A DNA stretch of 64,000 bases from Luteolibacter pohnpeiensis (GTDB taxonomy: Bacteria; Verrucomicrobiota; Verrucomicrobiia; Verrucomicrobiales; Akkermansiaceae). Positions 23,075-25,837 of the stretch are shown piece after piece. How positions within the stretch are numbered: position 1 is the first letter of the stretch; each line of letters starts with the position of its first letter. Below the pieces are notes generated by a model, which was given only the letters and a program-made list of their open reading frames with translations, had not been told where the DNA came from and searched no databases. The stretch spans positions 124,001 to 188,000 of the forward strand of contig NZ_JAENIJ010000001.1 of assembly GCF_016595435.1 (NCBI RefSeq). Direction: 5' to 3'. The position numbers were made by a program, and so were the translations under genes.

Positions 23075-24007
23075 ATGGCCCGAAAGAGCACCAAAAAACC
23101 CAGCAATCGACCTGCGCCAGCCAATCAGCGGCGTTCGCGGCAACCGATTACGGAGCTATTGAGCACCGCAAACCGCCGTGCCCACGAGCGCGCAAACCGT
23201 CGCGGTGGGCGGCGGGAGTATCGATCTGTCCAGGCCGCAATCGCCGAGTCCGCACCAATGGACGACATCGGCGCACTTGAATGGACCAAGCGCCTGCTGC
23301 GCTGGATCATCGGTCTGATCCTGCTGCCAATCTGCTGGGTGACGACGTGGACCTTTCTTTCACGTTTTTCGTATGCGACCGTGCATCAAGGGTTTTGGCA
23401 AACGCCGGAGTTTTGGTATTTCGCCACCGGCATTTTATTAATGGTGGGCTGGTTTTGGTCAGGACTTCTGCGGGATTTATTTTTATATTTATATGTATTG
23501 GGCCACGAGTTGACCCATGCGATTTTTGTCATCATCCATTTTGGCAAAGTCACCGATTTTCATGTCAGCACGTCGGGCGGTTATATCACGACCAATAAGA
23601 CGAATCTGATGATCGCGCTGTCTCCTTATTTCGTACCTTTTTGGTCGGCCGTTGTGGTGCTCGCCTATTTGCTAGGAAGGTTATTTTTCGGACCAACGCC
23701 CGAACTCGAAAATCTGCTTTATGTCACAGTGGGTTATACTTGGGCGTTTCACATGCTTTGGACCTTATGGATGCTGCCGAGGGACCAGCCCGACCTTCAG
23801 GAGCACGGCGTTTTCCTTTCGTTGATCATCATCTACTTGGCGAATCTGTTGGTACTCGTTGCCTTGCTTTGCCTGGCAGATGCCCAGTTGGACAGCTTTA
23901 GCGCTTTCGGACGCGAATGGATACGCGACGCGGCGACTTGGGGTGATATGGCATGGCGCTGGGCCAACGAGCTCGCACGCACGGTGCAATCCCGGGTCAT
24001 GTTGTGA
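23075..24007 (+). CDS. M50-like membrane metalloprotease
   Basis: Protein of 310 aa: a basic, Arg-rich cytoplasmic head (1-70), then about six membrane segments with the zinc motif HELTH at residues 144-148 inside the membrane region (LYVLGHELTHAIF). This placement suggests an M50/site-2-protease-like or related intramembrane enzyme. I do not see a clear second metal-ligand motif of the NxxPxxxxDG type, so catalysis is not proven. ATG 23075 is the first ATG in frame; no ribosome site is evident. Confidence 0.65.
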   Translation: MARKSTKKPSNRPAPANQRRSRQPITELLSTANRRAHERANRRGGRREYRSVQAAIAESAPMDDIGALEWTKRLLRWIIGLILLPICWVTTWTFLSRFSYATVHQGFWQTPEFWYFATGILLMVGWFWSGLLRDLFLYLYVLGHELTHAIFVIIHFGKVTDFHVSTSGGYITTNKTNLMIALSPYFVPFWSAVVVLAYLLGRLFFGPTPELENLLYVTVGYTWAFHMLWTLWMLPRDQPDLQEHGVFLSLIIIYLANLLVLVALLCLADAQLDSFSAFGREWIRDAATWGDMAWRWANELARTVQSRVML

Positions 24008-24026
24008 TTTTTACGCTCGCAGGCTC

Positions 24027-24254
24027 ATGCAAACGTTTCAGGTAAAAGTGAAGCCGAACGCACGTGAAAGTGCTTTGACGCTTCAAGATGACGGAACCTG
24101 GAAAGCCTCGATTAAGGCCCCGCCTGTGGATGGCAAAGCGAATGCGGAATTGATCCAATTGATATCAAAGAAGTTCCATTGCTCCAAGTCTGCCATCACC
24201 ATCAAAAGCGGTGCGGGAGCGCGATTGAAATTGATACATATTTCAAATGTTTGA
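24027..24254 (+). CDS. DUF167/YggU family protein
   Basis: Protein of 75 aa with VKPNARES near the start and APPVDGKANAELIQLISKKF, the defining block of the YggU/UPF0235 family. Function is unknown. The start at ATG 24027 comes 19 bases after the M50-like gene, so they probably form a pair. The stop codon overlaps the first copy of a 12-bp direct repeat. Confidence 0.85.
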   Translation: MQTFQVKVKPNARESALTLQDDGTWKASIKAPPVDGKANAELIQLISKKFHCSKSAITIKSGAGARLKLIHISNV

Positions 24255-24288
24255 TGAGTCATTTCCTAGTTGGAAAGATGAGTCATTT
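24253..24288. repeat. 12-bp direct repeat after the YggU gene
   Basis: GATGAGTCATTT occurs at 24253-24264 and again at 24277-24288, one copy every 24 bases. The first copy overlaps the YggU stop codon. This may be a local duplication or a paired binding site. Confidence 0.6.
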
Positions 24289-24297
24289 TTAATGATT

Positions 24298-24504
24298 TCA
24301 GCCATCGATCGCTACGTGATCACGGAATGGTTGAATGGGTTCAGGTGCGATAAGTTCGCCATTGTGTAAGGGATAGCACAATGCCCATCCCCCCAAGGAC
24401 GGGTCCGCGGGTGTCGGAAAAAGGGATCCGATGCCCGCGGTCATTCCCCGACGGATTTGCTCCTCAAATGATCGGTCGGGAATTCTTTTAAAAATTTTCG
24501 TCAA
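24298..24504 (-). CDS. Possible small protein, uncertain
   Basis: Frame of 68 codons opening with TTG (24504), with an internal ATG preceded by GGGGA that would give about 48 aa. The codon choice looks coding-like and the C-terminal part reads as a soluble peptide, but no family is recognised. It occupies an otherwise gene-free stretch and points away from the ncRNA promoter next to it. It may be a remnant of a lost gene. Confidence 0.3.
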   Translation of the reverse strand: MTKIFKRIPDRSFEEQIRRGMTAGIGSLFPTPADPSLGGWALCYPLHNGELIAPEPIQPFRDHVAIDG

Positions 24505-24550
24505 ACAAACATTGGTTCGGAAATCTTAGAATTTGTTTTGTAAAAAATAC

Positions 24551-24579
24551 TTGTAGTTAAGAAATTTTTTGCATATTAT
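24551..24579 (+). promoter_or_regulatory. Sigma-70-type promoter of the ncRNA
   Basis: TTGTAG (24551-24556) and TATTAT (24574-24579) are separated by exactly 17 bases within an AT-rich stretch. Transcription would begin near 24586. No protein gene follows on this strand before the terminator at 24731-24765. Confidence 0.65.
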
Positions 24580-24585
24580 GCCGGA

Positions 24586-24765
24586 GTAGTGCTGCAACGC
24601 AGGCTTGCTTGTCGAAGCAGGGCTACCATTTCCAGATTTCGTCTGGTTCGTTCGTGAGTGACTGATATCCGGGGGGAGATTGATCGCTCACTTCGTTCAA
24701 GGCGGAACCATTTGGGGGAAATGTGCAAGGAAAGGCGCGATCCATTGCGGACGCGCCTTTTCTTT
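24586..24765 (+). ncRNA. Candidate structured non-coding RNA of about 180 nt
   Basis: It is bounded by a promoter and an intrinsic terminator, with no convincing reading frame between. Predicted helices by eye: 24586-24595 with 24617-24626 (9 of 10 pairs); CCAGA/TCTGG at 24632-24646 with a 5-base loop; GTGAGTGA 24654-24661 with TCGCTCAC 24684-24691; and CATTT/AAATG at 24709-24723 with a GGGGG loop. G-runs sit in two loops. It lacks the 4.5S RNA GGAAG signature, tmRNA ends and RNase P features. 6S RNA has a suitable length, but tandem short hairpins are unlike its rod shape. Identity unknown. Confidence 0.6.
24731..24765 (+). terminator. Intrinsic terminator of the ncRNA
   Basis: AAAGGCGCG (24731-24739) pairs perfectly with CGCGCCTTT (24752-24760), the loop itself can add three more pairs, and a T-rich tail (TTTTCTTT, 24758-24765) follows. 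This is a strong rho-independent terminator on the plus strand, 72 bases before the end of the convergent nucleotidyltransferase gene. Confidence 0.8.
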
Positions 24766-24836
24766 GTTATTTGCGATTTGATTCGGCAAAGAACCAGACG
24801 GAACCAGAGCGCTGGGCCATGGTTCCGATCATTCGT

Positions 24837-25748
24837 TCAGGCCAGAGGGGATGGGTATTCCCCGGAATCGATCAGGTTCTGAATGGAATGCACCACATGC
24901 GGCTTGTCGGCCGGATAGGTGACGCCGAACCAGTGGCTTGTGGTTTCGAGAACCTTGCAGTCGGCCTTGCCGGCGCGGATCAAGGAATCGACAACTGTCG
25001 GAATGTAGCACTCGGACTTTTCCTCGGTGCCGCGAGCTTTGAGAAAGTCGGTGAACTCGCTTTCGATATGGTCGAAGAAGCACGGGGTAAAAGCCCAGAA
25101 ATTCATCGAAACTGGCGTGCCCTCGGTGATTTCGCGGCGTTGGCCATCGAGCGCTTGGCCTCTGACGACACCGTCGGATTCGCGCAAAATTTCGACGTAT
25201 TCCTCGACCTCCGTGAGCAGATCGGCGGCGTCGTGTTTGCAAATGCCACGGTTGACATCGCCGTGATCCGAAAGGGTGTTTTCCAGCGGATATCCGACCA
25301 TCGCATAGTGGGCGACACCATTTTCCGCTGGCGGGTTGGTGAGAAATTTCGCCGCGCACTCGTAGGCGTTCTGACCGTAGAAATCATCGGCGTTGATGAC
25401 GGCGAATGGCTCTTTCACGATTTCACGAGCGGCGCGAATCGCGTGGCTGGTCCCCCATGGTTTGGAGCGGCCAGCGGGAACGCTGAATCCTTCCGGCAGA
25501 TCATCGAGCCGTTGAAAGGCGTAGTCCACTTGAATGGAATCGGCAAACCGCGCACCGACTCCTTGCTTGAAGGCATCGGCAAAATCTTCGCGGATGATGA
25601 AAACCACACGGCCAAAGCCGGCGCGAATGGCATCAAAAACCGAGTAGTCCAAGACAGTTTCACCATTCGGGCCCATTGGGTCCATTTGTTTCAGGCCGCC
25701 GTATCGGCTGCCCATTCCGGCTGCGAGAACGAGAAGAGTGGGTTTCAT
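24837..25748 (-). CDS. Sugar-phosphate nucleotidyltransferase-like protein
   Basis: Protein of 303 aa beginning MKPTLLVLAAGMGSRYGGLKQ, the nucleotide-binding loop of NTP-transferases (GlmU/RfbA/GalU fold), followed by PWGTSHAIRAA and VINADDFYG, the metal-binding Asp block. It likely transfers a nucleotide to a sugar phosphate; the sugar is unknown. ATG 25748 is chosen because the fold begins there. The gene stands alone, convergent with the ncRNA and downstream of the metal ABC transporter. Confidence 0.82.
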   Translation of the reverse strand: MKPTLLVLAAGMGSRYGGLKQMDPMGPNGETVLDYSVFDAIRAGFGRVVFIIREDFADAFKQGVGARFADSIQVDYAFQRLDDLPEGFSVPAGRSKPWGTSHAIRAAREIVKEPFAVINADDFYGQNAYECAAKFLTNPPAENGVAHYAMVGYPLENTLSDHGDVNRGICKHDAADLLTEVEEYVEILRESDGVVRGQALDGQRREITEGTPVSMNFWAFTPCFFDHIESEFTDFLKARGTEEKSECYIPTVVDSLIRAGKADCKVLETTSHWFGVTYPADKPHVVHSIQNLIDSGEYPSPLA

Positions 25749-25837
25749 GAGTGGTTGGCCGCGTGGTTCGGGACGGCACGCGCGGAGGGAATCAAGACCA
25801 GGCGTTTGGAGCAAGCCTGCAGACATTCAGGACCCGC

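Follow-up and report, generated by a model that had tools for sequence, protein, structure and literature searches.

Conserved complementarity between a multi-copy family of predicted small RNAs, represented in Luteolibacter pohnpeiensis, and a second small RNA encoded beside it

What kind of element lies in the gene-free DNA of L. pohnpeiensis that is flanked on one side by a YggU-type gene and on the other by a nucleotidyltransferase-like gene in convergent orientation? An earlier note on this DNA (the window, i.e., the whole stretch of 64,000 nucleotides analyzed here) had proposed a structured RNA with its own promoter and terminator, lying free of genes and convergent with the next gene. 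The coordinates and the setting were right, and both hairpins singled out there (24586-24626 and 24654-24691, the latter with a G-rich loop) are in the minimum free energy (MFE) fold. We refer to this element as RNA B, and find, beyond what the note had described, that it belongs to a multi-copy family and that a complementary second small RNA, RNA A, lies immediately upstream (Table 1). A covariance model of the RNA B core (R1) matches the window at 24625-24727 with 63.9 bits, the window sequence being one of the 24 from which the model was built; the 5' hairpin and the terminator are outside the model and are supported from homologues.

Table 1. Features of the RNA A and RNA B locus, in positions of the window
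Feature	Position	Strand	Basis
YggU-type gene (Pfam DUF167), other flank of the gene-free stretch	24027-24254		
Palindrome CGTGATCACG, upstream of RNA A	24315-24324	.	By eye; possible operator
RNA A (small RNA): GTAAGGGATAGCACA, then C6, then a hairpin with loop AAAAAGGGAT	24366-24440	+	9 loci
C-run TCCCCCC of RNA A	24388-24394	+	Complementarity to RNA B
Terminator-type hairpin of RNA A	24405-24440	+	Fold, stem comparison
-35-like box CTTGTAG	24550-24556	+	CTT[GCT] box conserved among copies
-10-like TATTAT	24574-24579	+	Read from the letters alone
RNA B, small RNA (5' hairpin to terminator tail)	24586-24766	+	Covariance model and homologues
5' hairpin of RNA B	24586-24626	+	MFE fold
P1 5' arm CATTTCC, pairs with 24717-24723	24627-24633	+	MFE fold, alignment
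P2 5' arm, pairs with 24700-24707	24637-24644	+	MFE fold, alignment
P3 hairpin with UCCGGGGGGA as its loop	24654-24691	+	Alignment, loop-anchored test
Loop TCCGGGGGGA of P3	24668-24677	+	Unchanged in 33 of 40 copies
Second G-run and P1 3' arm TTTGGGGGAAATGTG, complementary to RNA A	24711-24725	+	Duplex tests
Intrinsic terminator of RNA B	24731-24769	+	Sequence, MFE fold, piecewise z
Nucleotidyltransferase-like gene, convergent, syntenic neighbour of RNA B	24837-25826	-	Pfam NTP_transferase

The whole of RNA B folds with -78.6 kcal/mol (z -3.94), and none of 200 shuffles folded as well. Taken piecewise, the z-score was -5.40 for the terminator, -1.94 for the middle rod and -0.70 for the 5' hairpin; as most of the energy comes from the terminator, little can be concluded from fold energy alone, and the comparison of homologues decides. 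That comparison bore out three conserved domains, namely the 5' hairpin, a long rod (P1-P2-P3) and the terminator; the small CCAGATTTCGTCTGG hairpin (24633-24647), one of the 'at least four hairpins' read by eye, is outside the conserved fold. The near-constant parts of RNA B are the loop UCCGGGGGGA and the segment CUUUGGGGGGAAUGUGC; in the fold neither the G loop nor the G segment is more than weakly paired. The G-run of the segment has five Gs in the window copy and is TTGGGGGG in 36 of the 40 copies described below. A small ORF starting from GGGGGGAAATG was rejected, since in some of the homologues, L019 and L024 for example, it meets by eye an early stop after few codons.

Searches with Rfam 15 gave no match at the gathering score anywhere in the 64-kb window; at E<=10 the RNA B region had six low-scoring matches, each far under its gathering score, and the best of these (E 0.8) was on the opposite strand. 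The earlier note had left 6S RNA (RF00013) open on account of length, and RNA B does resemble it in its ~180 nt and rod-like middle. The 24480-24830 region had no 6S match at E<=10, however, and the only 6S match of the genome at E<=0.001 is on another contig (G000:C232:70226-70407, 45.9 bits, 0.5 bit under the cut-off, E 8.6e-8); the existence of this separate 6S-like locus, together with up to three RNA B copies per genome, makes a divergent 6S RNA vanishingly improbable. Among 20 related loci, the Rfam matches were an RNase P RNA and a tRNA (L128), neither on RNA B; the former (L012:913-1297) immediately precedes an RNA B copy of G237.

A blastn search of 59 genomes, the source genome and its relatives, identified five weak matches other than the window itself, and one of these (L003) has in common with it a terminator-like hairpin and a pair of G-rich boxes. 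A two-box pattern, TCCGGGGGGA-N26-48-TTTGGGG, occurred at 30 sites in 21 of the 73 genomes of the genus, versus one site for the reversed pattern, and by eye all of these sites except L041 had the same layout. The core model was built from 24 of the 30 (window included); L041, a chance match, and L021, L025, L029, L033 and L039, near-duplicates or hard to align, were left out of the alignment (A3). With this model we identified 40 matches in 27 of the 73 genomes (one to three per genome at E<=0.05 per genome), 24 of them training sequences and 16 not, and no match in the other 46. While 36 of these matches had E-values of 1.2e-6 or less, the remaining four were weaker (3.4e-4 to 0.028), and as the E-values are per genome, some of these four, which lie above 1e-4, may be chance. 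When the model was run over 336 genomes of the order, genus included, matches at E<=0.01 were found in 21 genomes of the genus and one other, a search of a size that uses stricter filters so that weak members may be missed. The one other, the Akkermansia-like G339, had two 44-nt matches (E 0.007) inside a reading frame of 425-436 residues, which we do not count as RNA B. By these sequence searches the family is restricted to the genus within the 336 genomes. A stricter pattern was also applied and, of 24 named stretches, 19 gave clear model matches and five did not (L045, L047, L060, L061 and L063); the titles of the 19 are Luteolibacter sp., Akkermansiaceae, other Verrucomicrobia and, in three cases, Akkermansia muciniphila. 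A blastn search of a phage collection returned no match.

The check for covariation that the earlier note had called for came out well above the controls. In an alignment made by sequence only, 85.5% of 427 cells were paired (71.9 +/- 1.3% when shuffled and 25-48% when slid), both sides had changed in 12 of 18 pairs, and 64 cells were changed on both sides versus 22 in the shuffled alignments. The covariation score was 0.490 compared with 0.239 +/- 0.019 for shuffles and 0.06-0.135 for slides, the structure having an advantage over the slides as it was partly read off the same alignment. The signal is unevenly spread: P1 was paired in 86.1% of cells with double changes in one of six pairs, P2 in 88.2% with double changes in five of its six modelled pairs, and P3 in 82.0% with double changes in all six. 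Thus, as judged from the alignment, P2 and P3 carry the compensatory signal and P1 is conserved mostly by sequence. An ungapped, loop-anchored test of P3 (positions 3-9, 39 distinct copies) showed 78% pairing versus 51 +/- 2% in shuffles, the highest of 2000 shuffles reaching 59%. As for the 5' hairpin, a single hairpin adjoins P1 in 37 of 39 copies examined, a count made without a control (one of the 40 copies was left out for its short upstream sequence, and two were without a single hairpin), and the 62 nt upstream of P1 are mildly low in energy (mean z -1.55, with z<=-1.5 in 21 of 40). Together these comparisons indicate that RNA B is a conserved structured RNA, of which the window holds one copy.

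The neighbourhood of the copies bears on whether RNA B might instead be the cis terminator or an antisense tail of the convergent nucleotidyltransferase-like gene. Homologs of that gene (63-76% protein identity) are convergent behind six other copies, as such a role would have it, their stops lying 154-255 nt past the P1 start in G004, G022, G032 and G240 (216 nt in the window) and ~720 nt past it in G136 and G288. Other copies beside unrelated genes nevertheless keep the same structure and terminator, and we regard a cis element as highly improbable. The gene was compared directly, as our gene clustering had passed over it in the window in favor of a longer overlapping frame. Further shared neighbours, named by eye, are a DnaG-like gene, seen in three genomes, and an unannotated family of genes, seen in four; shared neighbours of this kind imply that copies stay in place across species and were also duplicated. 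In G113 two contigs (L010 and L011) start inside RNA B copies, with bases 1-119 identical, which makes them recent duplicates or an assembly repeat.

The terminator that had been read in the window, AAAGGCGCG...CGCGCCTTT followed by TTCTTT, is present, and a simple terminator scanner failed to report it. By a criterion of E<=-18 with at least four Ts in nine, a terminator follows the end of the model in all 40 copies, versus 4 of 250 random 70-mers. The proposed promoter, TTGTAG-17-TATTAT, fared less simply. It agrees with the consensus at 8 of 12 positions, a consensus promoter scan of 24000-25500 gave no site at a threshold of 9, and the best sigma-70-like scores upstream of 39 copies equalled those of shuffles (7.69 versus 7.70), so a classical sigma-70 promoter was not upheld. 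What did stand was its position: the window TTGTAG overlaps a conserved CTTG box, and 36 of 37 copies have a CTT[GCT] box at 36-56 nt upstream of the 5' hairpin, an interval picked after inspection, in which shuffled sequences gave 9.8 +/- 2.6 (maximum 16 over 500 shuffles); in 32 copies the distance is 37-39 nt. With terminators in 40/40 and the box in 36/37 copies, RNA B has, by its sequence, the own transcription unit looked for in a trans-acting small RNA (sRNA), and we infer that it is transcribed as one.

In addition, two TGGCCG-like repeats ~20 bp apart (in a loose form) precede 18 of the 40 copies, the window copy being without them. In eight genomes the strict double repeat occurs at six places, of which four are at known RNA B copies, one is at a second copy in the source genome and one adjoins a different small RNA that shares the loop. 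Every strict site thus adjoins RNA B or a same-loop small RNA, and on this basis we rejected IS21-like ends or a mobile repeat and take the repeats as a shared operator. The second, weak copy of the source genome (L116:1308-1409 on the reverse strand, G000:C177, 21.8 bits), with the double repeat and a TATAAT box above it, was found only via these repeats.

RNA A was found at nine distinct loci, the window and eight others, and at each of them an RNA B copy follows directly downstream. Its parts are GTAAGGGATAGCACA, a run of Cs accompanied by AAAG, which reads AAGG in the window copy, and a hairpin whose loop is of the AAGGGAT type; the hairpin stem was paired in 117 of 117 cells, with double changes in four of 13 pairs. 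The hairpin is followed by T6 at four of the nine loci and by a shorter T-rich tail at four, the window copy being the one without, and the C-run is predicted to lie partly within a small GCCC/GGGC hairpin. Among 240 loci examined an exact 14-mer of RNA A occurred only beside RNA B; within those loci RNA A is known solely as a neighbour of RNA B, and there may be genomes with RNA B and without RNA A. RNA A had no Rfam match, and 12 stretches of viral contigs with a 15-mer of it were rejected, as none goes on as RNA A. A palindrome near ACGCGATCGCGT recurs at the same place upstream of other RNA A loci and may be an operator.

The segment CUUUGGGGGGAAUGUGC of RNA B is complementary to the 5' part of RNA A. 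In seven of eight neighbour pairs examined there is a perfect 10-nt complement, CCCCCCAAAG:CUUUGGGGGG, which in most pairs continues with at least GCACA:UGUGC and at the longest with UAGCACA:UGUGCUA; this comparison left out one RNA A locus, L085, whose RNA B was missed by the pattern and which is included in the 14-copy duplex test. In the eight pairs the duplex of RNA A with the RNA B segment beat 1000 shuffles of RNA A at p<=0.004 in seven, with energies of -25.6 to -32.4, compared with -18.6 (p 0.025) for the window pair. Across the nine genomes with RNA A, 12 of 14 RNA B copies (nine neighbours and five paralogues elsewhere) were significant at p<=0.003, the exceptions being both copies of the source genome (neighbour p 0.032, second copy p 0.024), and against one RNA A, 26 of 27 RNA B copies from other genomes had p<=0.01. 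The longest complement of the window pair is 7 nt, and its departures (CAAGG in RNA A, ATTTG5 in RNA B) do not compensate each other. Co-folding beat shuffles at p<=0.03 in five of eight pairs (40 shuffles each), with no gain for the window pair (ddG 0.0 versus a shuffled mean of -2.2), and for duplexes of RNA A with the whole of RNA B the energies overlap the range of shuffles. The complementarity, as far as sequences and duplex energies tell, is conserved between RNA A and RNA B and is at its weakest in the source genome.

Neither Hfq (PF17209; control found in 5 of 14 named genomes) nor CsrA (PF02599; control found in 3 of 14) was detected in any of the 73 genomes, that of L. pohnpeiensis being 98.8% complete, which makes routes through these proteins unlikely; direct RNA-RNA pairing is then the most economical reading. 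We consider it somewhat probable that RNA A and RNA B are a pair of sponge and sibling sRNAs working by RNA-RNA pairing without Hfq. RNA B would be a multi-copy sibling regulatory sRNA of ~180 nt that base-pairs via its G-rich sites. Its CUUUGGGGGGAAUGUGC(UA), half of which is within P1, would pair in the cell with (UA)GCACA-N-CCCCCCAAAG, the C-rich 5' portion of RNA A, and this pairing would open P1 of the siblings, so that RNA A, encoded upstream in some copy lineages, would be their antagonist (sponge). The direction could also be the other, with the RNA B siblings titrating RNA A as regulator rather than target; the two may, on the evidence of their complementarity, control each other, with mRNA targets presumably downstream. 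Pairing with RNA A would also explain why the G-run and the P1 3' arm are constant beside variable P2 and P3.

An arrangement of this kind has a counterpart in Caulobacter, where the sponge CrfA is one sRNA complementary to the sibling sRNAs SisA-D, with Hfq involved (PMC12559287). RNA A is likewise one sRNA complementary to a sibling family. It differs from CrfA, as there described, in that no Hfq was detected in the 73 genomes here, and in that RNA A is encoded beside a sibling and matches a G6 segment; its role as a sponge is our reading. We found no description of the RNA A/RNA B family in the openly licensed literature or in Rfam, and next to nothing in that literature on sRNAs of Verrucomicrobiota. 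Siblings with a complementary sRNA are of a known kind; as far as these searches go, the novelty lies in this family, in its G-rich module and in a setting where Hfq was not detected. The manner of sRNA pairing in bacteria lacking Hfq is an open question, for which a conserved set of siblings beside its complementary RNA makes a compact test case in which partners, pairing site and natural sequence variants can all be named.

RNA B might instead pair chiefly with C-rich sites of mRNAs through its G-rich loops, RNA A being secondary. The exposed state of the G loop and G segment would suit this, and there is precedent in Rhizobiales RFMSmelA075/A099, sRNAs with a repeated loop motif, CCUCCUCCC, on variable stems, described as an anti-Shine-Dalgarno motif matching ribosome-binding sites (PMC3927594). 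RNA B resembles these, as described there, in having a constant loop on sequence-variable hairpins, and differs in that its loop is the G-rich UCCGGGGGGA, not CCUCCUCCC. The heptamer TCCCCCC is not enriched in the window, however (7 occurrences versus 10.65 expected, 64 kb being a small sample), and the match to RNA A, at 15-17 nt, exceeds a G6 seed; we therefore hold mRNA sites as chief targets to be improbable.

The loop UCCGGGGGGA, or a close variant of it, is present in all 40 RNA B copies, and the same cap recurs on hairpins with unrelated stems. A search for the 11-mer ATCCGGGGGGA in 28 genomes gave 104 matches or, with one duplicate contig end removed, 103 distinct sites that were examined. 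With shuffled flanks as the control, hairpins with z<=-3 were found at 18 of the 69 sites that lie in 12 genus genomes and in g19 (a genome of another genus), versus 0 of 34 sites in other genomes of the family and order; the count is conservative, since this threshold is missed by several loops of RNA B itself, among them that of the window copy (z -1.9). This test replaced the enrichment of the 11-mer itself (30 versus 1 for its reverse), which was dropped because other genera also had 0-11 sites versus 0-1 in the control, and a permissive stem score and a count of spans each discriminated poorly. A count of contiguous helices discriminated better, with at least eight pairs at 14 of 70 sites versus 0.76% of 5956 background sites. 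Among single interruptions G.U outnumbered A.C by 17 to 2, a count biased by the choice of helix and given no weight here.

A near-constant loop on varying stems, usually with a mismatch directly beneath its UCC/GGA, is what the sites of one RNA-binding protein might look like. CsrB/RsmZ-type RNAs are sponges of this sort, being sRNAs with GGA-containing hairpin loops, and RNA B has repeated GGA in its UCCGGGGGGA loop and GGGGGGA segment. RNA B would then be the sponge of a protein as CsrB is of CsrA, with the other UCCGGGGGGA-capped hairpins as further sites, and the same cap in unrelated RNAs, terminator hairpins among them (18/69 sites in the genus and g19, 0/34 in other genomes of the family and order), speaks for it. 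Against it, CsrA, the partner of the CsrB/RsmZ type, had no match in the 73 genomes, and the second constant segment is accounted for by RNA A without a protein; we consider a protein sponge unlikely. If RNA A and RNA B work by pairing, as we favor, the capped hairpins may be further G6 partners of RNA A, or they may yet be protein sites. We can put forward only tentatively, and as somewhat doubtful, that the C6 of RNA A and RNAs exposing G6 (one to three RNA B siblings and unrelated capped sRNAs or terminators) form a modular G6/C6 pairing network, in which the hairpin cap would be an interchangeable docking module. Such a network would work in a lineage without detected Hfq or CsrA, and the UCCGGGGGGA cap is a handle toward the rest of it or toward a new RNA-binding protein.

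Several other capped hairpins were observed in the course of these searches. Terminator-like hairpins of unrelated sequence are capped by ATCCGGGGGGA at L125:1501, L148:1501 and L187:1501. At L119 (~1580-1740) and L128 (~1430-1530) there is a small RNA of another type, in which TCCGGGGGGA caps two hairpins and the second resembles a terminator; a second hairpin similar to it occurs in G013 (three sites), G023 and G205, all without an RNA B match. The source genome has a pair of another capped small RNA (L142 at ~466 and L146 at ~1501, both on the reverse strand; G000:C209 and C218), adjoining similar small protein genes on short contigs, possibly a repeat or phage-like region. Lastly, one type of long capped hairpin is shared by L124, L149, L096:5034, L219 and L221, and in L149, L124 and L096 it lies between two convergent genes, which by eye are zinc-ribbon-like and for a membrane protein.
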